Below, piece after piece: positions 1 through 11,871 of a stretch of DNA of 11,907 nucleotides. Position numbers and translations under genes: made by a program. Each line of letters starts with the position of its first letter. Positions within the stretch are counted from its first letter, which is position 1. The notes beneath the pieces are model-generated. The model did no database searches and was not told where the DNA came from. It saw nothing but the letters and a program-made list of their open reading frames with translations. Source of the stretch: Omnitrophica WOR_2 bacterium RIFCSPHIGHO2_02_FULL_52_10 (lineage in GTDB: Bacteria > Omnitrophota > Gorgyraeia > Zapsychrales > Zapsychraceae); assembly GCA_001805655.1 (NCBI GenBank), contig MHGR01000003.1, positions 1 through 11,907 of the forward strand, given 5' to 3'.

Positions 1-241
1 CGATCATCCGGTGTCCGTGCTCATAAAACACCCCACCGACCATGGGAGGGAAGAGCATGCCATAGGAAAGCGGCCAATCCGGCACGGCCAGGCCCGCGTC
101 CATGCTCTTGACCATGGCGCCGGCGAATATCAAAAAAAGCGTCGCGCCGCAGGTAATTTTTGAGAACCAGCGCAACCAAGGATCGGTGGCTGTGATTTGC
201 CGTTGGGGACTTTCGGCGGCTGCGGATTCCGGTGAGCGCAT
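1..241 (-). CDS. ctaA: Heme A synthase, CtaA/COX15 family (partial, N-terminal 80 residues)
   Basis: This is the start of a gene that runs off the left edge; no stop is seen. CtaA is a membrane enzyme that oxidises the C8 methyl of heme O to give heme A, the cofactor of aa3 oxidases. The visible protein has a polar cytoplasmic N-terminus (residues 1-23), a first membrane segment (about 28-45), the family signature AGLAVPDWPLSYG (49-61), and the EHGHR motif (74-78), matching the EHxHR motif whose His is a heme ligand. The ATG at 241 lies 19 bases after the coxB stop, with AGGTG upstream as a modest ribosome site, so it is probably cotranscribed with the oxidase it serves. The first 20 residues are not conserved-looking, so the exact start is less sure than the identity. 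Confidence 0.9.
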   Translation of the reverse strand, partial: MRSPESAAAESPQRQITATDPWLRWFSKITCGATLFLIFAGAMVKSMDAGLAVPDWPLSYGMLFPPMVGGVFYEHGHRMI

Positions 242-260
242 GAGGACACCTGCAAACAAT

Positions 261-1043
261 CTAGTTCCAAAAATCGTCGTATCCTTCTTCTCCGCCTTTA
301 CCGGCCGTGCTTTGCTCGCTTAACCACCGGTCAAATTCTTCCTGGGAATGAATGGTTAAGAACCCTTTCATGCGGTAATGGCCGAGCCCGCACAGCTGCG
401 CGCAGGCAATTTCGAATTGGCCGGTTTTCGTGGGCGTGAACCATGTGGGAATGCTTATGCCGGGGATGACATCCTGCTTGACGCGCATGACCGGCAAAGA
501 AAAACTGTGTATGACGTCTTTTGACGTTAAATGAATGATGGCGGGTTTACCTACTGGAAGATGCAATTGATTGATCGTGGTGACATCGTCCTTTCCGTTG
601 GCATCACTAGGGTCCAGCCCAACCGGGTTCGATTGTTTGTCAACGTGTTGGATATCGGTTTTGCCGAATATGCCATCCGCACCGGAATAGTGGACGTTCC
701 AGGCGAATTGCTCGGCGATCACGCGGATTTCAACGGTATCGGTGCGCTTGGGAAAGGCATTGACCTGCTTCGCCCAGAAGGGGATTGAAAATCCAATCAA
801 TAGGACCGCTTCCACAATGACCACGCCGATTTCAATCCAGGACGTAATATGAGATTGAACGCCGCGGTAATTCGCGGCCGGGTTCTTTCCCTTGCGAAAC
901 TTGACCAGAACAACAATAAAATAGACCGCCCATCCGACAAAAAGCACGAGCATCAAAACGTGCACGAGATAAATAATCATGTCCACTTCGTGGCCATGGG
1001 AAGAGGCGTTAATCGGCAAATTGAACAACTTGACAAAATCCAT
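261..1043 (-). CDS. coxB: Cytochrome c oxidase subunit II (CuA subunit)
   Basis: CoxB takes electrons on the periplasmic side into the binuclear CuA centre and passes them to heme a in CoxA. The 260-residue protein has two membrane segments (about 23-48 and 70-90), the aromatic strand AEQFAWNVHY (110-119), and a cupredoxin domain. CuA ligands are visible: H179, C214, C218, H222 and M225 in the order H...CxxxCxxxHxxM. Position 216 is Gln where most homologues have Glu; that residue binds CuA through its backbone carbonyl and its side chain helps hold a Mg ion. There is no fused cytochrome c domain, so an external donor is needed. No cleavable signal peptide or lipobox is evident. A Gly/Asp/Asn-rich stretch (120-155) lies between the aromatic strand and the ligand region. 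It sits after the small membrane proteins rather than first in the operon. Confidence 0.96.
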   Translation of the reverse strand: MDFVKLFNLPINASSHGHEVDMIIYLVHVLMLVLFVGWAVYFIVVLVKFRKGKNPAANYRGVQSHITSWIEIGVVIVEAVLLIGFSIPFWAKQVNAFPKRTDTVEIRVIAEQFAWNVHYSGADGIFGKTDIQHVDKQSNPVGLDPSDANGKDDVTTINQLHLPVGKPAIIHLTSKDVIHSFSLPVMRVKQDVIPGISIPTWFTPTKTGQFEIACAQLCGLGHYRMKGFLTIHSQEEFDRWLSEQSTAGKGGEEGYDDFWN

Positions 1044-1060
1044 CGCAGATCCCTAAACTT

Positions 1061-1228
1061 TTACGGCGCCAGGTTTGACCGTTTGCTCACACTGGCAAAG
1101 AATTTAATAAAAAACCCGAACAACAACACCAGAATGGCCAGCATGCAGACAACCGCCGCCCGAAGGCCGATATTCATGGGGTCTTCCGGTGCTCCGAAGA
1201 AGCAGATACTGCAGGCATAGATACTCAT
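1061..1228 (-). CDS. 55-residue membrane microprotein with an N-terminal CxxC
   Basis: This short gene is easily missed. It starts MSIYACSICFFGAPED, has one hydrophobic segment (about 23-45) and ends SVSKRSNLAP. The ATG at 1228 is one base after the stop of the preceding 64-residue gene, and an AAGGAG ribosome site overlaps that stop, so translation is probably coupled. It ends 17 bases before coxB. C6 and C9 form a CxxC, and C28 lies in the membrane segment. The basic C-terminus suggests the C-terminus is inside and the CxxC faces the periplasm, although there is no cleavable signal. I recall similar short proteins with a CSxCF-like motif near oxidase genes in some bacteria, but their function is unknown to me. 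Roles as an oxidase accessory subunit or in copper handling are guesses. Confidence 0.8.
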   Translation of the reverse strand: MSIYACSICFFGAPEDPMNIGLRAAVVCMLAILVLLFGFFIKFFASVSKRSNLAP

Positions 1229-1229
1229 G

Positions 1230-1424
1230 CTACTCCTTTATTTTGCGCAAAAAGAATGTACCGTACGCGGCCAGCCCCACTGCGCAGGCCAGCGAAATAA
1301 CTGCCGTCCACAGGTAACCGGCCGCAGGCAACCGTTGAAAATTTACATACGCCCACACTGAAAATCCAGCGGTCACAAAGATTGAACATACGATAAATAT
1401 CACATGAAAAGCCCTAAGAGACAT
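1230..1424 (-). CDS. 64-residue membrane protein of the oxidase operon
   Basis: A small hydrophobic protein with two membrane segments (about 6-26 and 36-58) joined by a short polar loop (YVNFQRLPAAGY), and a basic tail RKIKE. I do not recognise a named family. Its start ATG (1424) lies inside the end of the subunit IV-like gene with an 11-base overlap in another frame, and its stop overlaps the ribosome site of the next gene; this packing supports a real translated gene. Its place between subunit IV-like and CoxB genes suggests a small oxidase subunit or assembly factor, which is inference from context only. Confidence 0.82.
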   Translation of the reverse strand: MSLRAFHVIFIVCSIFVTAGFSVWAYVNFQRLPAAGYLWTAVISLACAVGLAAYGTFFLRKIKE

Positions 1425-1728
1425 ACTTTAATCCTTCCGGCACGTTAAAATGGGCGCTACAGATTAAGGCCATCATGGTAATAAGAACAATAAATGCTAA
1501 TAACAAGACCATGTAGACCAATTTCTTTTCCGCGGTCAGGTGCATGAAATTGCACGCAACCAGCCCGCCCTTGATGCCCGCGATGATCAGGGCGATAATC
1601 ACGCCGATGGTCACCCCGTTGCGGAAGCCGCTCGCCAGGACTGTGACAACCGTGAGAATCAGCAGCCCGCCAAACACGGCCATGTATTTTTTGGTTTCCC
1701 TCTGGAGATCATGTGCTTCGCTGGACAT
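1414..1728 (-). CDS. Cytochrome c oxidase subunit IV-like protein (prokaryotic COX4 type)
   Basis: A 104-residue protein with three membrane segments (about 15-33, 36-58 and 67-90). The motif GLVACNFMHLTAEKK (about 56-70) matches the conserved loop of the prokaryotic subunit IV family (CoxD/CtaF/CyoD type), a small oxidase subunit thought to help assembly or stability. I place the start at the ATG at 1728, not at the in-frame ATG at 1824, because AGAAAGG lies just upstream, and because residues before it would be a Cys/Arg-rich stretch overlapping the end of coxC. The gap to coxC is then 19 bases. The 3' end overlaps the next small gene by 11 bases. Confidence 0.88.
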   Translation of the reverse strand: MSSEAHDLQRETKKYMAVFGGLLILTVVTVLASGFRNGVTIGVIIALIIAGIKGGLVACNFMHLTAEKKLVYMVLLLAFIVLITMMALICSAHFNVPEGLKYVS

Positions 1729-1747
1729 GCGGCCTTTCTTTCGGGCC

Positions 1748-2341
1748 TTACAATAAATATAAGACCGGGAAGAGAAAAATCCAAACCAAATCGACAAAAT
1801 GCCAATACAGCCCCGCCACTTCAATGCGGTTGATGAAATGCTCGGGGTCGCTTTGCCACATCTTACACCCCGGCCCCCAAAAGTAACTGTTAACGATTAC
1901 CCCCCCTACAATATGTAACGCATGCAGCCCGGTCAATGTGAAATAGATAGCCAAAAACGTGCTCGTCTTAGGAAAGTAATGATGCTCAAATTTGGCGTTG
2001 TATTCAAACCCCTTGATCGCCAAAAACGCCAACGCCAGCAGAATTGTCAATCCGAGGCATAATTTAAATCTCCCGAAACTCTTGTCCTTGAGCGCGACCC
2101 AGGACATGACCATCGTCACGCTGGAGGTGATCAGAATGACCGTGTTCACGGCTCCAATCGGCACGTTGAGGATCGATGAACCTAAAGGCCATTGCGCCGC
2201 GCCTATCCGCAACAGGATATATGTTGAAAAAAGAGCGCCGAACAACATGACTTCGGAAGCCAAAAAAAGCCAAACACCCAGCTTCGCGTTATATAATCCG
2301 GTGTCCTGACGGGGCTCTACGGTATAGGGAATCGCATCCAT
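1748..2341 (-). CDS. coxC: Cytochrome c oxidase subunit III
   Basis: CoxC is a membrane subunit that supports the stability and proton uptake of the oxidase core. At 197 residues it is the short bacterial form with five membrane helices, lacking the first two helices of the seven-helix mitochondrial type. Conserved features are visible: SEVMLFGALFSTY (about 29-41) with the family Glu, FTLTGLHALHIVGG (about 133-147), and the terminal GLYWHFVDLVWIFLFP (about 177-192). The ATG at 2341 is six bases after the coxA stop; a near-perfect AGGAGG ribosome site is formed by the last codons of coxA, so the two genes are tightly linked and probably made in fixed proportion. Confidence 0.96.
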   Translation of the reverse strand: MDAIPYTVEPRQDTGLYNAKLGVWLFLASEVMLFGALFSTYILLRIGAAQWPLGSSILNVPIGAVNTVILITSSVTMVMSWVALKDKSFGRFKLCLGLTILLALAFLAIKGFEYNAKFEHHYFPKTSTFLAIYFTLTGLHALHIVGGVIVNSYFWGPGCKMWQSDPEHFINRIEVAGLYWHFVDLVWIFLFPVLYLL

Positions 2342-2347
2342 TCGGCG

Positions 2348-4084
2348 CTATCCTCCTGGTTTGTTTTGGGGCGTAAAATCCTCGGCGGCTCCCGGAACGC
2401 TGTATTCATACGGGCCGCGGTAGACCACCGGCTCCACGGGAAAATTCCCGTGGCCGGGTGGTGTCGGCGTCTGCCACTCCAATGTTGTTGATTTCCAGGG
2501 ATTATCGGACGTCACTATGTTTCTTTTGCACATGCTCCAGATCAAATTTATGATAAACGGCAATTGAAACAGGGCTAAGCCCCATGCGGACATGGATATC
2601 ATTTTATGGAGGTTTAGCGTGCCTTGCAAGTGCGCATATTGGGCGCCTCCGTCATACAGCCGCCGCGACATCCCGGCCAGCCCCTGGACAAACATCGGCA
2701 TAAAAATGCAGTTCATGAATAACAGCGACGGCCAGAAATGCAGGTGCCCTAAAAACTCGTTCATCTTGCGCCCCGTTATTTTGGGGAACCAAAAATATAT
2801 TCCGGCAAAAATCCCAAAAATCGTCCCCGGGGCGACGACGTAGTGAAAGTGCCCGATCACGTAGTACGTATCATGGAGGTGAATATCCGGGGCCGATAAG
2901 CCCAGCGGCAAGCCTGTCAAGCCGCCAATCCCGAACATAGGCAGGAACGCGACGGCAAACAACATAGGGGTGTTGAACCGAATGGACCCGCCCCAGAGCG
3001 AGATAAACAGGCAGGTCAAAATCACAACCGATGGGATAGAAATGATCATGGTTGTGGCCTGGAAAAAAGCGTTGATGGCCGTTCCCATCCCGGTCAAATA
3101 CATGTGATGCGCCCAAACAATGAACGACATGAAGCCGAGGAAAATTACCGAATAGACCATGGATTTATATCCCCATAGCGGCTTTCGGATATTGTTGGCA
3201 AGGATTTCGCTGACAATCCCCATGGCCGGCAGAATCAGGACATACACTTCGGGATGGGCGAGGAACCAAAACAAATGCTGCCATAGCAAAACGCTCCCCC
3301 CTCCGCTGACTTCCAGCGGCTCCCCGCTGACCATGAGGCCGCTGGGCAAGAAGAAACTTGTTCCGGCAACGCGGTCCAAAAGCTGTAAAATGCCGGCTGC
3401 TTCAAGGGGCGGGAAAGCCAGCAAAAGCAGGAAGGCCGTCACTAATTGCGCCCAAACAAAAACGGGCAGGCGCATGAAGGTTAACCCGGGAGCGCGCAGT
3501 TGAAATATTGTCGTGATGAAGTTGACAGCCCCCAGGAGAGACGACGTAATCAAAAAAACCATACCAAGGATCCACAGCGTTTGACCGGTCGTGGCTATGT
3601 CGGCAAGCGGCGGGTAGGATGTCCAGCCGGAATTGGCCGCCCCCCCGGGCACGAAGAAACTCACCAGCATGGTTATTCCGCCGGCCAAAAAAGCCCAGTA
3701 ACTGGCCATGTTAAGCCGCGGGAAGGTCATGTCCGGCGCGCCGATTTGAAGCGGAACGATGTAGTTGCCAAAGGCCCCGACCAACAGAGGGACAACGCCC
3801 AAAAACACCATGATGGTCCCGTGCATCGCGCCCAATTCATTGTAAAACTCCGGAAGCATAATGCCGCCCGGAGCCCTGTTCTCTCCCAGAAACTTCCCGA
3901 TAAACGGAATCGGCTCCCCCGGATAGGCCAACTGCCAGCGCATGAGCATCATCAAACAAAAGCCGAAAAACAAAAAACACAGAGCCGTGATGCCATATTG
4001 GATCCCGATGACTTTGTGATCCGTGGAAAAAATATATTTTTGCCAAAAGTTTAATCTATGGGAATTGTGCGGATCGTTGGACAC
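2348..4084 (-). CDS. coxA: Cytochrome c oxidase subunit I (heme a, heme a3, CuB)
   Basis: This is the catalytic subunit that reduces O2 to water and pumps protons. The 578-residue, at least twelve-helix protein shows every metal ligand: H88 and H414 for heme a, H412 for heme a3, and H277, H326 and H327 for CuB, with Y281 in HPEVY placed to form the His-Tyr cross-link. D-channel residues D118, N125 and E279 are present, as in type A1 heme-copper oxidases. The helix VIII stretch SIPSVVILTC (349-358) has Ile355 where the K-channel Lys is expected and Cys358 where Ser is common. The loop before the HPEVY helix (about 240-266) is longer and Gly/Ser-rich. The start is a GTG at 4084; it keeps the conserved NFWQKYIFSTDHKVIG N-terminus, but its ribosome site is weak. 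Its 3' end carries the coxC ribosome site. Confidence 0.97.
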   Translation of the reverse strand: MSNDPHNSHRLNFWQKYIFSTDHKVIGIQYGITALCFLFFGFCLMMLMRWQLAYPGEPIPFIGKFLGENRAPGGIMLPEFYNELGAMHGTIMVFLGVVPLLVGAFGNYIVPLQIGAPDMTFPRLNMASYWAFLAGGITMLVSFFVPGGAANSGWTSYPPLADIATTGQTLWILGMVFLITSSLLGAVNFITTIFQLRAPGLTFMRLPVFVWAQLVTAFLLLLAFPPLEAAGILQLLDRVAGTSFFLPSGLMVSGEPLEVSGGGSVLLWQHLFWFLAHPEVYVLILPAMGIVSEILANNIRKPLWGYKSMVYSVIFLGFMSFIVWAHHMYLTGMGTAINAFFQATTMIISIPSVVILTCLFISLWGGSIRFNTPMLFAVAFLPMFGIGGLTGLPLGLSAPDIHLHDTYYVIGHFHYVVAPGTIFGIFAGIYFWFPKITGRKMNEFLGHLHFWPSLLFMNCIFMPMFVQGLAGMSRRLYDGGAQYAHLQGTLNLHKMISMSAWGLALFQLPFIINLIWSMCKRNIVTSDNPWKSTTLEWQTPTPPGHGNFPVEPVVYRGPYEYSVPGAAEDFTPQNKPGG

Positions 4085-4108
4085 TGCGGATAGGCGCTTT
4101 CTTTATGA

Positions 4109-4822
4109 TTAACGCGAATAGGTAAAATTCACCTGATTGCTGGAGCCATCCTTAACGGAAACGGTGGCTTTTTGCTGGCCTAATTTCTCATGCCACGCCT
4201 CAATTTCATATTCACCGGGTGGGACATCCCTTAATACAAACCCGCCGTCCTCCTGAGTCACGGCGAAAAAAGGATGATCCATGACGGAAATCCACGCCGC
4301 CATCCAGGGGTGGACGTCGCATTTAATGGGAAACATAAACTCGGCCTTGCTAAATGTCTGCGTCATTTCCTCCCTGAATTTGGGCATGGCCAAATTAAAT
4401 TCCGGGTTGATCTTTGACAGGGCATGGACATTGTGCAGGGTGCCGTCAGGATTGAGGATTTTCACCGTTTGCCCAACCATGACCCCTAAAACATGCGGGT
4501 CATACATGCATCCCTGCTGATTGATAACGGCCGGTTCGGCTGGGACGGGGTATTTAACGCCTTGGGGCAACCCCTTCGTGATATGGACAAACACATCGGC
4601 CATGGTCTTTTCCGGCCCTAATCTCAGCGTTTGGGGGAAAACTGCTTCCGTGTGCTTCGACAGGCAAATCGGATCGGCATCCATTTTGATTTCCCGAAAA
4701 TTTGGCACTTCCCCGTTATACGTGATGACACCGGAAATATTGCCGGCAGCGAAGGCGTACGTCGAAACCGCCAACACGATGCCTGTGGTTAGACTCATTA
4801 ATCCTGTGCGTATGTTTTTCAT
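4109..4822 (-). CDS. Exported cupredoxin-like protein with C-terminal Ig-like domain
   Basis: A 237-residue protein with a signal peptide (basic start, hydrophobic core 8-22, likely cut after AFA at 23-25), so it acts in the periplasm. A cupredoxin-type copper site is suggested by H130 or H133 in GTLHNVHA and by C168, H171 and M174 in KCDVHPWM, the type 1 copper order H...CxxHxxM. The last part (about 183-237; DGGFVLRDVPPGEYEIEAWH) resembles a carboxypeptidase regulatory-like beta-sandwich. It is the first gene of the oxidase block, directly behind a promoter and 24 bases before coxA, with an AAAGGA ribosome site. As the only small exported redox protein in the window it may carry electrons to CuA; a copper-delivery role is also possible. 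Fold assignment is fairly safe, function is inferred. Confidence 0.8.
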   Translation of the reverse strand: MKNIRTGLMSLTTGIVLAVSTYAFAAGNISGVITYNGEVPNFREIKMDADPICLSKHTEAVFPQTLRLGPEKTMADVFVHITKGLPQGVKYPVPAEPAVINQQGCMYDPHVLGVMVGQTVKILNPDGTLHNVHALSKINPEFNLAMPKFREEMTQTFSKAEFMFPIKCDVHPWMAAWISVMDHPFFAVTQEDGGFVLRDVPPGEYEIEAWHEKLGQQKATVSVKDGSSNQVNFTYSR

Positions 4823-5011: not shown

Positions 5012-5422
5012 CTATCGGCATTTGTCATATTTCAAACCAATATGATGCATAAACGGCTTGAGATTTCCTTTCGGAAATCCCCGGAACTCGCTTCCGCACT
5101 TATAGCAATTGATGATCGTTTGAACCTTGCTGTGGAGTAACCAGTCGATAAGGGCAAACACGGGCAGGCTGAGACAGTAAGTGAAGGGCACCAGGATAAT
5201 GCCAATAAGCATGATGAGGCAGCCGACAAATTGGTTAAAATCCTTTGAGAGATAGAATTGCCGGCACTGGCAAATCGGACACTGTTCCAGGACTTTGGTT
5301 ATGTCCCCCATTCTGCCCCATTCAAAACGACAATGAGGGCAACGCAGGATTTTCCCCGCTTGCGCGGTTACTTGCCCATATATTTTGCATTGATTGCAGA
5401 TTTTGGCAACCGAGCAGTTCAC
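5012..5422 (-). CDS. Membrane zinc-ribbon protein of unknown function
   Basis: A 136-residue protein with four CxxC pairs: C9-C12, C28-C31, C48-C51 (plus C53) and C106-C109. The first two pairs fit one zinc ribbon. The last two flank a hydrophobic hairpin (about 65-96), as if a second ribbon were split by two membrane helices; both halves would then face the same side. Conserved-looking stretches are FYLSKDFNQFVG (56-67) and NCYKCGSEFRGFPKG. The start is a GTG at 5422 that overlaps the stop of the upstream gene by four bases (GTGA), so translation is likely coupled. I recall conserved hypothetical proteins with this layout but no function. It is the last gene of the bc block; a role in assembly is a guess. 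Confidence 0.8.
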   Translation of the reverse strand: MNCSVAKICNQCKIYGQVTAQAGKILRCPHCRFEWGRMGDITKVLEQCPICQCRQFYLSKDFNQFVGCLIMLIGIILVPFTYCLSLPVFALIDWLLHSKVQTIINCYKCGSEFRGFPKGNLKPFMHHIGLKYDKCR

Positions 5423-6192
5423 AGAACGACACCGTATTTCACTAAATAATATTTATACGCGATATCGCCTATGAGAACAGAGCACAAAATAACGTAAAGG
5501 ATGCCTGTGGCGGATTGCGTGTTCTTTAGTTTCAGGACTTCATTGGCAAAATACAGAGACGCTAAGGGAAAGACCGTCCCGAACAAGAGACCGATGAATA
5601 CGAGGAACCCCTCGCTGGTTAGCGCGAAACGCATGATAGGAACGGTGTCCTCCCGATAGATAACGCTTCCCCTCCACAAATAATACGCGTCCCACAGCAG
5701 GCGCACCGACAGGGCCGCCGCAAAAACTTGGATGGCGCGCGCCAGGTGTTTGATCGGAAGCCCATGGACGTTCAGGTACCAGTGGCCGAGATTCATGGCA
5801 TACAACGCGGCGCAAAAAATGACTCCTCCCAAAATACCGATAACGGCGATGTCCCAAGCCGGCGCGATTAAATGTCCCTGAAGCCGCAGAAACGCGAATA
5901 TTCCCAATAGACTCGCCATCGCCATGAGCGCGGGGGCTGGGGACTCCTTTTTCCAGGAATACCAGGAAACCGAGAGAAAAACCGCTTTCCAAGCCGTGAC
6001 GGTCCATTTCAAAGCCAATGGGATATCCATCAGCCATACAAAGATCAGGACAACCCCGCCGACCGTGTTGGGCAGGCCGATGTGAAATTTGTGAAATTGA
6101 TTTTTGAGGGGATCATCCGCGCTGATCAAAAAGCACAACGGGTATATCGCCGCAAACGCGAAAGCCGTAACTAAGGATATCGTGCCGAGCAT
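5419..6192 (-). CDS. Polytopic membrane protein with a GHWYL motif, unknown function
   Basis: A 257-residue very hydrophobic protein with about seven or eight predicted membrane segments. The most distinctive feature is MNLGHWYLNVHGLPIKHL (133-150), with three His within 13 residues after a membrane helix; other polar spots are NQFHKFHIGLPN (31-42) and FLRLQGH (101-107). I do not recognise a named family. It lies 55 bases after the octaheme cytochrome gene and overlaps the zinc-ribbon gene. The ATG at 6192 has no clear ribosome site, so the start is uncertain, although no other upstream in-frame ATG or GTG is seen before a stop. Heme or quinone handling, or assembly of the neighbouring complex, are possible from context and the His-rich motif, but unproven. 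Confidence 0.8.
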   Translation of the reverse strand: MLGTISLVTAFAFAAIYPLCFLISADDPLKNQFHKFHIGLPNTVGGVVLIFVWLMDIPLALKWTVTAWKAVFLSVSWYSWKKESPAPALMAMASLLGIFAFLRLQGHLIAPAWDIAVIGILGGVIFCAALYAMNLGHWYLNVHGLPIKHLARAIQVFAAALSVRLLWDAYYLWRGSVIYREDTVPIMRFALTSEGFLVFIGLLFGTVFPLASLYFANEVLKLKNTQSATGILYVILCSVLIGDIAYKYYLVKYGVVL

Positions 6193-6247: not shown

Positions 6248-9235
6248 TTAATTTAATCCCTCAATTGGAGTCAATTGAGGATTTTCCTCAGCGGACGACG
6301 ATGCTGCCGCCGGCTGAGGCTCCGCATTTCGCTCAGCAAGAGGCGGTTGTTCGGATAAGGTTAAAAGAAAATTGCGCAGGACGCGGATCTGCTCATGCTC
6401 GTCCCCATTGAGAATGTCATCAGGGCCGGACGCTTCAAAGGCCTGCGGGTCAAAATAATTAGGCATCTTTGTCCCCGGGAGAAGATTTTGGGGATTCTTG
6501 ATCCATTCAACAATCCAATCCGGTTTTAACCGGCGCTTTGCCAAGGCAAAATTCGGCGCCCAGTTTTCCGGCGACCCATCGGGAAGTTTATTGCCGACAA
6601 TATGGCATTTCACGCAATCAAAATACTCGGGAGAAAAAAGCGCCTGCGCGGCTTTGTATTCCTGCTCCGTCAACGAAACGTCAACCTTTTCCTCAAACGG
6701 AAAGTCCTGACCGTCTAACGCGCTGAAATATTTCAGCAGAATGTTCAATTGCTCTGACGCGAAGTTATAGGTCGGCATGCGCACCTTGAGCCAGGGTCGG
6801 ATTGTTTCTGGAGCGTGGATGAATTCAAAGAGCCACTGCGCCTGAACCTTTTTCCCCTCCCCTACTAAATTCGGCGGGCTGAAACTGTTGACTATCGCTT
6901 GCGCCTCCGTATCGCTGCGATTATCGTACTTGATCAGCCATTCCGCAACGCTGGGCCGGATCGATCCGCCCTCCCCTTCCAAAATATGACATCCTTTGCA
7001 ATTCATCTGGCGTACCAATTTTTGGCCGCTTTCGATATCAATGTTCCTGGCATCCCGCGGCACAACCTTCGCCTCGGGCACATCCCGGACAAACCCCAGT
7101 AGGGCGGTTACGACGGCCTCGATTTCCTCATCCGTGAAATGAAAATTGGGCATGCGCAATTTTTCATCATGGGCCTTAACCCGGCCTTGGTCAAAAATGC
7201 GGGGATCTTTCAATTTTTGCGTGAACCAGGCATAATTCATGTGCTCAATATTGACAAATCCGAAATCCAATCGATGGGTCGACTTGTCTCCCTCCTCGGT
7301 CATGGCCGTACCGATGGGCTTGTCGCTCTCAAATCCGGAGATGTCGTGGCAGGAAAAACACCCATAATGCCGGATGAGTTTTTCCCCGGCAAACAGCAGT
7401 TTTTCCTCCAGATTCATGGCCCCGAGAGCCTCCTCCGCCTGAGCATTAGTTTTTGATTTCGCCAGAAAATTAAAAACAATCTCATCCATGACGGTTTCGC
7501 TGACATCCGGGATCGGCGTGGCATTAAAATCCTCGTTTTTGAGGGTTCCAAGGAACGCCGCAATGTCGGCGGCTTCCTGATCGATAAGCCGAAGGTTCGG
7601 CATGCGAGTTGCCGGATGATACCGCTTCGGGTCCTTGAGCCAATTATAAATCCATTTTTCCGAAATTTTGGTGCCGACTCCCGTGAGATTCGGCCCATGT
7701 TCACGCCGCAGGGAATCCGCTGTCACCATCTGACTGGCCGCAAGAGGGCTGGTTTGATGACAGGCAAGACACCCCACCGAAGCGACAAGCTCTTCCCCCC
7801 GCACAGGGTCACCAGCCATGGGAGGCGCACTCTTGTCATACTCTTGGCTCTTTTTAAATAAATACTCTGCGATCGCGTGAATTTCCTGCTCATTGCGGGC
7901 GCGCGACTGCGGGTCGCTGGTGTTCGATTGAAAGAAAAATGAGGGCATCCACGTGTCTAGCCTGAAACCATGCGGGTCGCTGATCCAGCGGTAGGCCCAA
8001 TTTTTCGAGATTTTTGAGGCCACTTTTGTCAAATCCGGACCGGGCTTCGGCCATCCCTTAAATTTCTCGATTTCATGGCAATTATAACACCCCGCCTTCT
8101 CAATGACGTGCAAACCGAGGTTTAATTTATCGGCCTTTTTGACCTCGGTCTGCCCGGAGTGGCACTTAAAACAACTGGCTTCGGTATACTGAATCGGGAG
8201 CATCGGCTTCTCCCAGTGGTGAAGCTGGTGCCAATGGTATTTTTCCTCCCATGCCTTAGCCTGTTCGGGCGAAGAAGGCGTGTGCGCCGCAGAATTAAAA
8301 TCGGTTCCCCTACCCCTGCCTCCGTGACAGACCGAGCAGCCGAATTCCTCCATCGGATGCGGTGATTCGCGGCCAAGAAAATTGTTAAGATCAGGATGCG
8401 TCGTAAACGGTTGGTCCGCGTGTTCAAAATCAGGATTGTCGATTCCCAAATGGCATGTAATGCAGCGGTCGACTTTGGGGACAGTCATAAAATTCACGTC
8501 CTCCGTAATATCCTTTAAGACGATTTGGTTAATCTTGTATTTCGGGTTGGCAAGGTCCAGGATGGGCAGGTCGCGCACCATATCGGCGATCCTGCTCGTG
8601 AAACTCATTTTATCGGGGTCGATGTTGACAAGTTTCCGGTGCAGGATCTGCGCTTTATTAGAAAAATTGTGCTCTTGCCGCTCTAACTCTTTTAAACGGG
8701 CCCCGCACACTTCGACGCCTTTTGTCTTTTCATCCAAGGCTTGATTGGACTGCGCAACCGCCAAATCCAGCTCATCCAGCTTTTGCGATAGTGCGTTGAA
8801 TTCGGCGCGGCGGGAATCCGCGTCCCGAGCATTATTCTTAAGCGCGTTTTCGTAAAGATACCTCGACGCATCGAGCTTGGCGGATATAAATTTTTGCTCT
8901 TGAACAAGGAGGCCGTTTTGGGCGGTTAAATTTTTGACCTCTGCTTTAACGCTTTCTTTTGGGGCGCAGTTGGCGGCATATTCGCTCCTTGCCTGCTCCA
9001 GTTCAGCAACCAGCTCCTGGTATTCAGGGGTTTGTTCCAGCAAATTCTCTGTCGTGTCAAATTTAACACGTGTTTTTTCAATCTCCAGCGTTCGGAATTT
9101 CTTTTGAACGTCCTTCCAACTCCGGGAATAATCATCCGCCACCATCCACCCCAACACGGCCAGCAAACCGAGGCTGGAAACAGCAAAAAGAACGTTGAGT
9201 TTATCTATATTATAATGACGCTCTTGTGGTTCCAC
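6248..9235 (-). CDS. Membrane-anchored octaheme cytochrome c with coiled-coil neck
   Basis: A 995-residue protein. A short N-terminus is followed by one uncleaved membrane helix (about 13-32), a charged Lys/Glu-rich likely coiled coil (about 45-205), and a large periplasmic part with eight CxxCH heme sites at C258, C300, C355, C383, C489, C626, C746 and C874. The first three are close together and surrounded by many His (H280, H293, H318, H334, H336, H339, H340) that could be second ligands. The last five each start a class I-like module ending in an MP motif with a likely Met ligand: M430, M545, M695, M820 and M924. The tail (965-995) is low complexity. The GTG start at 9235 lies 8 bases after the cytochrome b C-terminal gene with GAGAGG just upstream. 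By position it replaces cytochrome c1 and probably moves electrons from the Rieske protein toward the oxidase. Confidence 0.92.
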   Translation of the reverse strand: MEPQERHYNIDKLNVLFAVSSLGLLAVLGWMVADDYSRSWKDVQKKFRTLEIEKTRVKFDTTENLLEQTPEYQELVAELEQARSEYAANCAPKESVKAEVKNLTAQNGLLVQEQKFISAKLDASRYLYENALKNNARDADSRRAEFNALSQKLDELDLAVAQSNQALDEKTKGVEVCGARLKELERQEHNFSNKAQILHRKLVNIDPDKMSFTSRIADMVRDLPILDLANPKYKINQIVLKDITEDVNFMTVPKVDRCITCHLGIDNPDFEHADQPFTTHPDLNNFLGRESPHPMEEFGCSVCHGGRGRGTDFNSAAHTPSSPEQAKAWEEKYHWHQLHHWEKPMLPIQYTEASCFKCHSGQTEVKKADKLNLGLHVIEKAGCYNCHEIEKFKGWPKPGPDLTKVASKISKNWAYRWISDPHGFRLDTWMPSFFFQSNTSDPQSRARNEQEIHAIAEYLFKKSQEYDKSAPPMAGDPVRGEELVASVGCLACHQTSPLAASQMVTADSLRREHGPNLTGVGTKISEKWIYNWLKDPKRYHPATRMPNLRLIDQEAADIAAFLGTLKNEDFNATPIPDVSETVMDEIVFNFLAKSKTNAQAEEALGAMNLEEKLLFAGEKLIRHYGCFSCHDISGFESDKPIGTAMTEEGDKSTHRLDFGFVNIEHMNYAWFTQKLKDPRIFDQGRVKAHDEKLRMPNFHFTDEEIEAVVTALLGFVRDVPEAKVVPRDARNIDIESGQKLVRQMNCKGCHILEGEGGSIRPSVAEWLIKYDNRSDTEAQAIVNSFSPPNLVGEGKKVQAQWLFEFIHAPETIRPWLKVRMPTYNFASEQLNILLKYFSALDGQDFPFEEKVDVSLTEQEYKAAQALFSPEYFDCVKCHIVGNKLPDGSPENWAPNFALAKRRLKPDWIVEWIKNPQNLLPGTKMPNYFDPQAFEASGPDDILNGDEHEQIRVLRNFLLTLSEQPPLAERNAEPQPAAASSSAEENPQLTPIEGLN
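6256..6283 (-). other. Stem-loop at the 3' end of the octaheme cytochrome gene
   Basis: A perfect 9-base inverted repeat, CCTCAATTG (6259-6267) and CAATTGAGG (6272-6280), with a 4-base loop; allowing one bulged G the stem extends to about 12 base pairs with AATC/GATT ends. It lies within the last codons (NPQLTPIEG) of the gene. On the transcribed strand no U-run follows, so it is not a typical intrinsic terminator. A role in mRNA processing or stability between the cytochrome and the downstream genes is plausible. Confidence 0.45.
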
Positions 9236-9243
9236 GGAACCTC

Positions 9244-10365
9244 TCAGATGTTAAAGAAAAACTCCGGAATGGCAACGATATATTTGATATTGAACGCCCA
9301 ACGTAGCAGCATCTTGATCGGCAGGCTTACAGCCATCAACAGTAAAATCGTGAAAATACTGTAACGCAAGGAACCGAGTTGATCAAACAACCGTTTGAAC
9401 AGCGTTTTTGCCAAGATTAGCGGCATGAGACCAAAATAACCGATAATCACCAGAAAACCGGGCAGCTCCCGCAGCAAAATGTTTGCCGGAAGCTGTTGTT
9501 TTAACCAAATCATATAAACAATCTCAGAAAGATTGACGTTGGTTAAGGCTTCCAGTTTATTGACATCCCAAAATTCAAACGGCCCAAAAAAGTTCCAGTT
9601 GGGTCCTCGCAAAAATGTTCCAACCATAATGAGGAATACCCACAGAACAAGCCAAAAAAACATAAATACCGAAATGGCCATTTTCCGTTCGTTGAATGAA
9701 AAATACCCCCTTCCCTTTTCGTTATGGTCAAGATAGGGAATGGCCATCATGCCGATGATAATAATTGTCGGAAAGAGAACGCCGGCAATCCATGGATCGA
9801 AATAGACCAGCATTTCCTGGAGGCCGAGGAAATACCACGGCGCTTTTGAAGGATTTGGAGACACTGCGGGATTCGCTGGCTCCTCCAAAGGCGCCTTCAG
9901 AAGGATCGACCAAGCAATGAGCAAAACAGTGCAGAGAATCAGGGCGATGAACTCGATATATACCAGATCCGGCCAGACCAGGACTTTTTCCTTGGAATCT
10001 GCGTCCTCAGCCGGCTTCTTGCCTTCCCCGATCCGTTGGTCATTTTCCACCGCCTGCTTCATGGCGAACCATAGAAAAAACACGACAAGAAAAATCAACC
10101 CCACGATCGGGACATTGTCGGGCTTCGTCACAATCAATTTAAAATTCGGGTCCGTCAACCCGAATAAAAAGAACACAATCAAAATGGCAAAAATAGCAAT
10201 TCCGCCTTCCTTGGTCCAGAGCTTGTCAATGCGCAGCATTTTATTGAGTTTATACAGCCGATCGGTTGGCGGGAAAATAACAAAAAATACCAGGAGAATC
10301 AACGGCAGGATGATCTCCGGCGCGAAAATGATATTGACAAATTCCTTAATGGTTTCCAAGGTCAT
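9244..10365 (-). CDS. Cytochrome b C-terminal domain subunit (subunit IV-like), extended
   Basis: This 373-residue protein supplies the C-terminal part of cytochrome b, including one wall of the quinol oxidation site. The diagnostic stretch is NPSKAPWYFLGLQE (171-184), where APWY (175-178) takes the place of PEWY. It is followed by helices at about 192-210 and 229-251 and two more near 303-320 and 335-355. Unlike cytochrome b6f subunit IV (about 160 residues), it has an N-terminal extension with about three membrane segments (about 13-32, 55-70, 86-101) and a charged loop (103-130). No heme-ligand His pair is seen, as expected for this half. The ATG at 10365 has AAGGTG ten bases upstream and follows the cytochrome b gene by 21 bases. 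It closely resembles subunits of bacterial quinol:cytochrome complexes with KAPWYFLGLQE motifs. Confidence 0.9.
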   Translation of the reverse strand: MTLETIKEFVNIIFAPEIILPLILLVFFVIFPPTDRLYKLNKMLRIDKLWTKEGGIAIFAILIVFFLFGLTDPNFKLIVTKPDNVPIVGLIFLVVFFLWFAMKQAVENDQRIGEGKKPAEDADSKEKVLVWPDLVYIEFIALILCTVLLIAWSILLKAPLEEPANPAVSPNPSKAPWYFLGLQEMLVYFDPWIAGVLFPTIIIIGMMAIPYLDHNEKGRGYFSFNERKMAISVFMFFWLVLWVFLIMVGTFLRGPNWNFFGPFEFWDVNKLEALTNVNLSEIVYMIWLKQQLPANILLRELPGFLVIIGYFGLMPLILAKTLFKRLFDQLGSLRYSIFTILLLMAVSLPIKMLLRWAFNIKYIVAIPEFFFNI

Positions 10366-10386
10366 TGAAGCGTTACACCTTAAATA

Positions 10387-11178
10387 TTATGTTGGTCCCG
10401 AGATGCCGCCGTCTTTACGCACGCGCCAGAAATGGATGATCATAAAAATCATAATGATAAACGGCAGGCCGATGCAATGTAAAACGTAAAAACGCAGCAG
10501 GGCGCCCTCCCCAACAAACCGCCCTCCTAGCAGCGCAAAGCGCGCATCACTGGACGTGGTGATAAAATTAACGTCCCCCAGCGCCAGCAGAGACGACCCC
10601 GGGCCGGATGTTCCGGCAAACGGCGTTGCGCCGGCCATGTTGGATCCTACAGTAATCGCCCAGATCGCCAACTGGTCCCAAGGCAAAAGGTAACCGGTGA
10701 AGCTCAACAGCATGGTTAAGACAAGCAGAATGACACCGACAACCCAGTTGAATTCGCGCGGCGGCTTATACGATCCCGTCATGAAAACCCGGAACATGTG
10801 CAGCCAGACCGTTATGACCATGAGGTGCGCCCCCCAGCGGTGGATTTCGCGCATAATTCCCAACGGCACCTGCTCCCGGAGGTCCATGATATCCCCGTAA
10901 GCGTATTCTACCGTGGGCCGGTAATAAAACATCAGAAGAATGCCGGTCACGGTGAGCACAAGAAAAACAAAAAAGGACAGCCCCCCCATGCACCAGGTGT
11001 ATTTAACTTTGACCGCGTGCTTCGGCAAACGCACCGGGTGTAGATGCAGAAAAACACCGTTAAGAACAACCATCATCCGCTGGCGGCGGTTGCGCGGTAT
11101 CCCGGTACGGAAAATGGATTTCCATACTTGCGTTTCCGCGATCTTCTTTAGCCAGTTATCCCCATTGTTTTCTGCCAT
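10387..11178 (-). CDS. Cytochrome b (b6-type), N-terminal diheme subunit
   Basis: The 263-residue protein binds the two b hemes that carry electrons across the membrane during quinol oxidation. Ligands are H113 and H127 in REIHRWGAH...WLHMFRV (13 residues between) and H234 and H249 in RFYVLHC...IIHFWRV (14 between, the b6 spacing). Other conserved parts are [12 protein letters not shown] (134-145), TGYLLPWDQ (161-169) and the end [10 protein letters not shown]63 in KYTWCMGGL aligns with the Cys of cytochrome b6 and Bacillus QcrB that holds an extra covalent heme. The stretch between the third and fourth helices (about 178-226) is longer than in chloroplast b6. About four membrane helices are predicted. 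The ATG at 11178 has an AGGAGA site six bases upstream and lies 21 bases after the Rieske stop. Confidence 0.95.
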
Positions 11179-11199
11179 ACATGTCTCCTCTAGACACCA

Positions 11200-11871
11200 T
11201 CAGACGGTTAAATAGGATTCAGGATCGTCCCACTCGCCTTTTTCCTGCTGAAATTTTTTTGTCTTATCAATGGCAATTTCCCCATCGTCGTTCAATCCGA
11301 TCTTAAACCGTTCCAACGGCCTCGGCGCCGGGCCCTCAAAATTGATACCGGTTTTATAAAAGCCGCTGCCGTGACACGGGCATTTGAATTTGCTGTCATT
11401 TTCCAGCCAGTTCGGCGTACACCCCAGATGCGTGCAGACCGTGGAAAGAGCGTAAATTTTTGCCGGATCGCGAACGATCCACACGGCATGTTTTGATTTA
11501 TATTTCTCGGAAACTTTGCCTATTTCATATTCTTCGGGAAACCCTGCCAAAAAAGTCTGCTTGGGCTCAAACAGAACATTTGGAAATAAAAACCGCAGCA
11601 TCAGCGTTCCATAGCCAGAAACAACGGCGGCAAACGCGGTCCAGCCCACCACCAACCATTTGATGAATGTTCTCCTTCCCTCATCGGTTCCGGGAGACGC
11701 CGCGCCGGGGTCGACAGCCTCTGTATCTGGCTGTCTGGTAATCGGACGGGTAATAGCTACGGCCGGGTTACGTTCATTGGAAACCGACGGTGGTGGAACG
11801 GCGGGTTGCCCGGGAGGCACCGATTGACGCATCTCACTTGGACTCTTTGGATTGTTTAAATCGTCGGTCAT
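11200..11871 (-). CDS. Rieske [2Fe-2S] protein of the bc-type complex
   Basis: The protein takes the first electron from quinol and passes it to the cytochrome c partner. Both Rieske boxes are present: CTHLGC (146-151) and CPCHGSGF (164-171), giving cluster ligands C146, H148, C164 and H167 and a disulfide C151-C166. A twin-arginine motif GRRTFIKW (65-72) precedes the single membrane anchor (about 72-95), matching Tat export of a folded cluster protein. The first 64 residues are an unusual Pro/Ser-rich cytoplasmic tail. The ATG at 11871 lacks a strong ribosome site, and the reading frame stays open through the remaining 36 bases to the right edge, so an earlier start outside the window cannot be excluded. 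M14 is a less likely alternative start. It is the first gene of the bc block seen here. Confidence 0.95.
   Translation of the reverse strand: MTDDLNNPKSPSEMRQSVPPGQPAVPPPSVSNERNPAVAITRPITRQPDTEAVDPGAASPGTDEGRRTFIKWLVVGWTAFAAVVSGYGTLMLRFLFPNVLFEPKQTFLAGFPEEYEIGKVSEKYKSKHAVWIVRDPAKIYALSTVCTHLGCTPNWLENDSKFKCPCHGSGFYKTGINFEGPAPRPLERFKIGLNDDGEIAIDKTKKFQQEKGEWDDPESYLTV

Follow-up and report, generated by a model that had tools for sequence, protein, structure and literature searches.

The window analysed here is an entire contig (C3) of 11,907 bases from the genome of Omnitrophica WOR_2 bacterium RIFCSPHIGHO2_02_FULL_52_10 (1.56 megabases, 76% complete), and it encodes a b6-type quinol-oxidising (bc) complex with a membrane-anchored octaheme cytochrome c, a type-1 copper protein of the cupredoxin fold and a complete aa3 oxidase. 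We propose that electrons most likely travel from quinol through the Rieske protein, the octaheme cytochrome and the cupredoxin to the CuA site of the aa3 oxidase, and we assign this path a probability of about two in three. Quinol would be split at the Qo site of a b6f-like complex of the octaheme type known from Nitrospina and Kuenenia; one electron would run through the hemes b, and probably also heme c_n, for the Q cycle, and the other would enter, via the Rieske cluster, the anchored octaheme cytochrome that replaces cytochrome c1 or f. From the terminal His/Met hemes of the latter, this electron would leave to the periplasmic copper protein (4109–4822), which is predicted to dock there and to hand it on to CuA of the adjacent oxidase.

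The 12 genes of the window and a truncated CtaA gene all lie on the minus strand, in the order Rieske protein, N-terminal part of cytochrome b, C-terminal part of cytochrome b, octaheme cytochrome, a 257-residue protein, a 136-residue CxxC protein, cupredoxin, CoxA, CoxC, CoxD, a 64-residue protein and CoxB. Spacing inside the bc block is 21, 21, 8, 55 and −4 base pairs (bp). An intergenic region of 189 bp lies ahead of the cupredoxin gene and only 24 bp separate it from coxA, so that the cupredoxin gene seems to lead the cox block. The original prediction for this DNA, which had been made from the sequence alone, had recognised the Rieske protein, the b6-type cytochrome b, its C-terminal subunit and the 995-residue eight-heme cytochrome beside a complete aa3 oxidase, and all of these were found again at the coordinates given. 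It had also held that no small soluble cytochrome c is encoded; indeed, the window has none, but the cupredoxin had been overlooked.

The octaheme bc complex

The operon opens with a Rieske [2Fe-2S] protein of 223 residues (11200–11871; PF00355) that by eye has an N-terminal anchor, followed by the b6-type N-terminal part of cytochrome b (10387–11178; 263 residues) and an enlarged, subunit-IV-like C-terminal part (9244–10365; 373 residues; PF00032); the Rieske, Cytochrome_B and Cytochrom_B_C models of Pfam all match the window proteins above their cut-offs. In the Rieske protein, C146 is kept in 24 of 25 rows and H148, C151, C164, C166 and H167 in all 25, and among these residues we presume the cluster ligands on the one hand and the disulfide on the other. 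The closest solved relative is 9rk3, at 159.5 bits versus about 55 bits for the cyanobacterial b6f Rieske protein. This chain is Kustd1480 of Kuenenia (PMC12954380), and with 64 of the 115 aligned columns identical, the Rieske protein of the window appears to belong with the Kustd1480 branch.

Cytochrome b is split into a b6-like and a subunit-IV-like part, as in the Nitrospina–Kuenenia type. For the N-terminal part, the nearest solved chain is cytochrome b6 (153 bits, versus 95 bits for bc1 cytochrome b), and the putative heme-b histidines are H113/H127 and H234/H249. Its Cys63 aligns with the b6 cysteine of 'FYCLGG', which we take to be the heme c_n site, and is kept in 24 of the 25 readable rows (of 27), the exception being L077, a locus without an octaheme protein. 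The C-terminal part aligns with b6f subunit IV over residues 130–243, has about eight hydrophobic segments by eye and carries the Qo motif KAPWYF, present in all 26 readable rows (of 27). A canonical bc1 complex is ruled out by the split of cytochrome b and by the lack of a c1 model among the matches of the scanned window proteins, and cytochrome b6f proper by the lack of a cytochrome f match among the same proteins. We also rejected the selenite/tellurite b-type cytochromes ExtP and ExtQ of Geobacter, for both of which the scores fall below the curated NCBIfam cut-offs (268 of 290 bits and 67 of 150, respectively).

The fourth subunit (6248–9235; 995 residues) holds eight CXXCH motifs, at residues 258, 300, 355, 383, 489, 626, 746 and 874. 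These are not a product of chance, since both cysteines and the histidine of each motif are invariant in 79 aligned homologues, every one of which has exactly eight; the alignment includes two Marinimicrobia loci and one titled Deltaproteobacteria. Outside the motifs, H280 and H293 are conserved in 100% and H318 in 99% of the 79 sequences, and M430, M545, M695, M820 and M924 are invariant. This pattern fits a cluster of three bis-His hemes and, after it, five class-I domains with His/Met ligation, with the pairing of each ligand to an individual heme being a prediction. A single hydrophobic segment lies near the N-terminus; in the AlphaFold2 model (mean predicted local distance difference test score, pLDDT, 86.7) the first helix spans residues 10–36 and long helices occupy about residues 39–205, ahead of the first heme. 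No solved structure matches the protein by sequence (PDB) or by Foldseek at E ≤ 0.001.

In all 27 loci that show both genes, the octaheme gene lies directly 3' of the gene for the C-terminal part of cytochrome b; the loci cover 22 of the 26 octaheme genomes, and locus L013 begins inside the octaheme gene. This supports the view, voiced by the original prediction, that an anchored octaheme protein occupies the place of cytochrome c1 or f in a b6-type complex. Among the 120 matches listed, the named homologues belong to Candidatus Omnitrophica or Omnitrophota. The octaheme protein of locus L011, queried separately, has homologues among the matches listed that bear the names Candidatus Binatia, Deltaproteobacteria and, in one case, a Terriglobales bacterium, which extends the family to additional phyla.

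Operons for a b6-type bc complex that include an atypical octaheme cytochrome c have been in print since 2013, when they were described for Nitrospina, Kuenenia and Methylomirabilis (PMC3578206). In Nitrospina gracilis and its counterparts, the operon likewise comprises a Rieske protein, a split b6-like cytochrome b and subunit IV, and the octaheme protein as the only adjacent c-type subunit; unlike that operon, the one in the window adjoins a cupredoxin–aa3 operon, and in Omnitrophota. In the complexes reported for Kuenenia, cytochrome f is replaced by a cytochrome c that is hexa- or octaheme, a heme number given for two complexes jointly and not assigned to Kustd1485; subunit IV has five helices, and Kustd1485 contains long alpha-helices (PMC12954380). 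Kustd1480–1485 thus share with the window a b6-like cytochrome b with a c_n site, an enlarged subunit IV and a large multiheme protein with a transmembrane helix and long alpha-helices, whereas their putative NAD(P) oxidoreductase subunit has no counterpart found in the window. The octaheme protein is likened to Kustd1485 and to the Nitrospina protein by the described architecture only. Cytochrome b6f has in common the split cytochrome b, the heme c_n cysteine and the Rieske type, and it too passes electrons to a copper protein, in its case plastocyanin (PMC13053071); it differs in having cytochrome f where the window encodes an octaheme cytochrome.

Complex III of the window is therefore best placed in the already known Nitrospina/Kuenenia octaheme kind and not in a new architecture, and the novelty that the original prediction saw in it was overstated, the same operon type being in print (PMC3578206, PMC12954380). 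What our analysis adds is the extension of this poorly characterised class, which we found published for bacteria of the nitrogen and methane cycles, to Omnitrophota and, through homologous loci, to Marinimicrobia and Binatia. Seymour et al. (PMC10066038) count cytochrome c oxidases in Omnitrophota, and the terms 'complex III', 'Rieske' and 'plastocyanin' do not occur in the main text of that paper.

The cupredoxin and the oxidase

The cupredoxin has 237 residues and matches amicyanin at 1.9e-4 by sequence and 5.4e-6 by fold (model pLDDT 88.8). Its candidate type-1 copper ligands H130, C168, H171 and M174, whose roles we presume from the alignment to amicyanin, are invariant in 27 of 27 rows, giving a full His-Cys-His-Met set within a cupredoxin fold. 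A complete Cys-His-His-Met type-1 site is typical of electron transfer. By eye, the N-terminus is signal-like and has no lipobox; a helix spans residues 4–22, and no later membrane segment follows, so that the protein is apparently secreted and would be exported and soluble. Residues 187–234 match PF13620 (CarboxypepD_reg) at 31.5 bits, just under the cut-off of 32.3, which we read as a cupredoxin core possibly inserted within a CarboxypepD_reg-like domain. Amicyanin, pseudoazurin and auracyanin (for the latter, PMC3150298) share the type-1 ligand set and the fold; they differ from the 237-residue window protein with its CarboxypepD_reg-like C-terminal segment. A diverged paralogue, 40% identical over residues 78–236, is encoded on contig C28 of the same genome (L073, 4854–5723).

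The oxidase operon, CoxA-CoxC-CoxD-(64-residue gene)-CoxB, is complete. CoxA, subunit I of an A-type heme-copper oxidase (2348–4084), matches PF00115 at 452.6 bits and TIGR02891 at 578 bits, below the cut-off of 671, and its conserved histidines are kept in 22 to 23 of 23 rows. CoxB (261–1043; 260 residues; PF00116) has the CuA ligands H179, C214, C218, H222 and M225 in 19 to 20 of 20 rows. With the CuA site and the heme-copper histidines in place, the enzyme can be classed as an A-type aa3 oxidase. As the original prediction had stated, CoxB has no fused heme domain, none being matched by Pfam or NCBIfam.

We counted the octaheme protein in 26 of 92 genomes (our own and 91 relatives, several of them far from complete); 32 of the 92 hold the cupredoxin and 33 hold this CoxA. 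The cupredoxin and CoxA are found together in 32 of the 33 CoxA genomes, our own included; the sole genome without the cupredoxin, G030, is 61% complete and has CoxA at a contig edge. In 29 of the 33, the cupredoxin gene lies within 2.5 kilobases (kb) of the CoxA match. The octaheme protein is accompanied by the cupredoxin in 23 of its 26 genomes, and when genomes are collapsed to genera, the pairings are 22 of 22 for cupredoxin and CoxA and 19 of 21 for octaheme protein and cupredoxin. Conversely, nine of the 32 cupredoxin–CoxA genomes have no octaheme match at the cut-off used, five of the nine being at most 70% complete.

At the level of loci, the cupredoxin gene shares the stretch with the octaheme gene in 14 of 28 octaheme loci, and 10 others break off too early to show it; in L011 (Deltaproteobacteria-titled), L012 and L013 (Binatia-titled), the order is octaheme, cupredoxin, CoxB. 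The genus labelled g40 has six genomes with this CoxA, and three loci from it (L074, L075 and L076) were examined; there, the oxidase genes adjoin a Rieske gene and a cytochrome b frame of 760–778 residues with three CXXCH motifs. Pfam recognises the two halves of cytochrome b as well as three class-I cytochrome c domains in the L074 frame (12450–14753). This cytochrome b–triheme c fusion takes the position that the octaheme complex has elsewhere, and the cupredoxin stands beside coxA in both loci that hold coxA (L074, L075). In genome G088, a 622-residue cytochrome b frame and a 415-residue five-heme protein replace the octaheme protein, and the cupredoxin adjoins CoxB on another contig. Finally, G086 has one cupredoxin copy (L079) beside the octaheme gene, with CoxA and CoxB on another contig (L081), and a second copy (L080) beside neither the octaheme gene nor CoxA. 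The cupredoxin is thus what stays the same between differing quinol-oxidising complexes and an unchanging oxidase, as would be expected of a carrier, and the sharing of one cupredoxin–oxidase pair by two different bc complexes makes the question of the carrier directly testable.

The probable electron path and its alternatives

Besides this distribution, the rarity of small class-I cytochromes c and the precedents of auracyanin and plastocyanin speak for the cupredoxin as a probable carrier. A survey with PF00034 only, covering 20 of the 25 octaheme genomes other than our own, recovered frames of fewer than 200 residues in 3 of the 20 (G006, G019 and G027), in agreement with the original prediction that small soluble cytochromes c are missing. 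Auracyanin has been proposed as the carrier from alternative complex III (PMC3150298), and plastocyanin in Caldithrix, for which no soluble monoheme cytochrome c was found (PMC5317091); copper carriers that might link to the oxidase or the bc complex were also considered for a nitrite-oxidoreductase gene cluster (PMC3578206). The proposed copper-protein carrier would answer what links an octaheme complex to an oxidase.

Several observations weigh against this path. If the N-terminal helix at residues 4–22 stayed uncleaved, the cupredoxin would be anchored and not diffusible; it could serve the oxidase in copper handling instead; and c-type cytochromes encoded elsewhere in the genome, such as a diheme protein on contig C25 and a tetraheme protein on C20, could carry the electrons. 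Four loci (L008, L048, L052 and L092) show no cupredoxin beyond the octaheme gene despite at least 5 kb of visible sequence, and three octaheme genomes (G007, G055 and G067) have none. Two of these, G007, which is 93% complete, and G055, are also without this CoxA, so that either the octaheme complex has another partner there or the genes were not assembled. The Fisher tests of co-occurrence, moreover, treat related genomes as independent, and their values are not to be taken literally.

Foremost among the alternatives is the built-in wire of the original prediction, in which the octaheme protein would touch CoxB within a bc–aa3 supercomplex and no diffusible carrier would be needed. An anchored cytochrome that has eight hemes and a long arm would suit such a role, the octaheme and oxidase genes share a gene cluster in several relatives, and the alternative complex III of Flavobacterium has been argued to pass electrons to aa3 without a diffusible carrier (PMC8552683); like the window complex, it feeds aa3 from a multiheme cytochrome, and unlike it, it is devoid of Rieske protein and cytochrome b and has a molybdoenzyme-like core (PMC9386147). 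However, the cupredoxin gene accompanies CoxA in nearly all genomes that have this CoxA, including the nine without an octaheme match, and the copies in G086 show it beside the octaheme gene away from the oxidase, or beside neither. With a cupredoxin between the two operons, the wire is not needed, and we hold it to be unlikely, while noting that both routes could operate.

We give rather less credit to the idea that the cupredoxin handles copper for the assembly of CuA/CuB, with another cytochrome as the true carrier. Its tighter tie to CoxA (32/33) than to the octaheme gene (23/26) would agree with this, but the complete type-1 site in amicyanin spacing, without a single exception in the alignment, and the G086 copy that lies beside the octaheme gene and away from CoxA argue for electron transfer. 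Slightly less probable still is a flow in the reverse direction or a branch, in which high-potential donors such as the arsenite oxidase AioAB feed the pool of cupredoxin and cytochromes, from which the bc complex drives electrons energetically uphill onto quinone; this would be compatible with the cupredoxin as carrier. AioA and AioB are indeed encoded in this genome beside a diheme cytochrome c, and reverse flow through an octaheme-type bc complex has been proposed for Nitrospina (PMC3578206); yet AioAB was examined in this one genome, and ordinary forward respiration agrees with the pairing with aa3 that is conserved in many relatives. A bifurcating complex that makes the reduced nicotinamide cofactor NAD(P)H, in which the octaheme protein would act as an enzyme and not a conduit, is suggested by the likeness of the Rieske protein to Kustd1480, since a putative NAD(P) oxidoreductase is part of the Kustd1480 complex, but is highly improbable given that no such oxidoreductase occurs among the scanned window proteins or the family-searched upstream frames of relatives (HEAT-repeat, ATP synthase, other or no family, a 782-residue frame of L051 matching none), and that a conserved His or Met is available as distal ligand candidate for each of the eight hemes, leaving no open catalytic heme evident.

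Neighbouring genes and other redox proteins

Between the octaheme and cupredoxin genes lie two genes whose products have no Pfam or NCBIfam match. The first encodes a conserved polytopic membrane protein of 257 residues (5419–6192), with H37 and H143 in 21 of 21 rows, whose homologues adjoin the octaheme gene or, in L086, the cupredoxin–cox genes. The second, overlapping the preceding gene by 4 bp, encodes a protein of 136 residues (5012–5422) that contains four CxxC pairs and a single hydrophobic segment, its eight cysteines being kept in 18 to 19 of 19 rows. Both genes travel with the octaheme gene or the cupredoxin–cox genes, and the conserved histidines and CxxC pairs suggest a role in metal-site assembly; the 257-residue protein is possibly a subunit or an assembly factor, and the 136-residue protein possibly an assembly factor. 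The remaining oxidase genes encode CoxC, subunit III (1748–2341), for which all four NCBIfam matches are oxidase subunit III models below their cut-offs, and a small CoxD-like subunit IV (1414–1752), recognised by operon position and size. The CtaA-like heme A synthase (2–259), assigned by eye, is cut by the contig end, and CtaA homologues come after CoxB in several relatives.

At its other end, the contig stops 36 bases before the Rieske gene, so that the gene upstream lies beyond it. In 17 of 19 relative loci (L008, L009, L036, L037, L039–L044, L047, L048, L050–L052, L079 and L092), a protein of about 290 residues with HEAT repeats, Pfam-confirmed in three, and by eye an apparent N-terminal hydrophobic segment is encoded directly upstream of the Rieske protein; such a gene, if present here, would fall past the contig end. 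In 10 of the 19 (L037, L039–L044, L048, L050 and L092), the bc genes are preceded, at a distance of a few kb, by genes for F-type ATP synthase subunits (Pfam-confirmed for four frames, in L037 and L040), which gives the appearance of an ATP synthase–bc super-cluster, with cox genes on the same stretch in several loci. It is an improbable though conceivable extension that ATP synthase, octaheme bc complex, a captive cupredoxin and aa3 form a conserved super-cluster for energy conversion in Omnitrophota whose products make up one physical unit. The octaheme arm would then dock the copper protein on the way from quinol oxidation to CuA, and the result would be a minimal respiratory chain that does without any mobile cytochrome c.

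Across the whole genome, PF00034 matches only the octaheme protein and a pair of diheme proteins encoded on C25; with PF13442, a tetraheme frame on C82 is matched weakly as well (E 0.5). A whole-genome scan for CXXCH gave 116 sites, versus 41 in a reversed control; 100 of the 116 were listed, and 20 stretches around selected sites revealed tetraheme proteins on C20 and C82. These tetraheme cytochromes (L094, 20–637 and 898–1542; L093, 1092–1922) are c3/c7-like, in part NapC-like and c554-like.

Contig C25 (L035) encodes, at 118–4312, the arsenite oxidase subunits AioA and AioB, both above curated NCBIfam cut-offs, beside a diheme cytochrome c; our literature search found no publication naming both 'arsenite oxidase' and 'Omnitrophota'. 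The adjoining region (4328–12011) encodes two di-heme MauG/CCP-type proteins, one matching MbnH/MauG below cut-offs and the other Pfam CCP_MauG, a molybdopterin oxidoreductase of 1146 residues, and a 562-residue protein with two class-I hemes and a match, below cut-off, to the heme-b subunit of type II dimethyl sulfoxide reductases, a set that in our estimation resembles nitrite-oxidoreductase-like genes.

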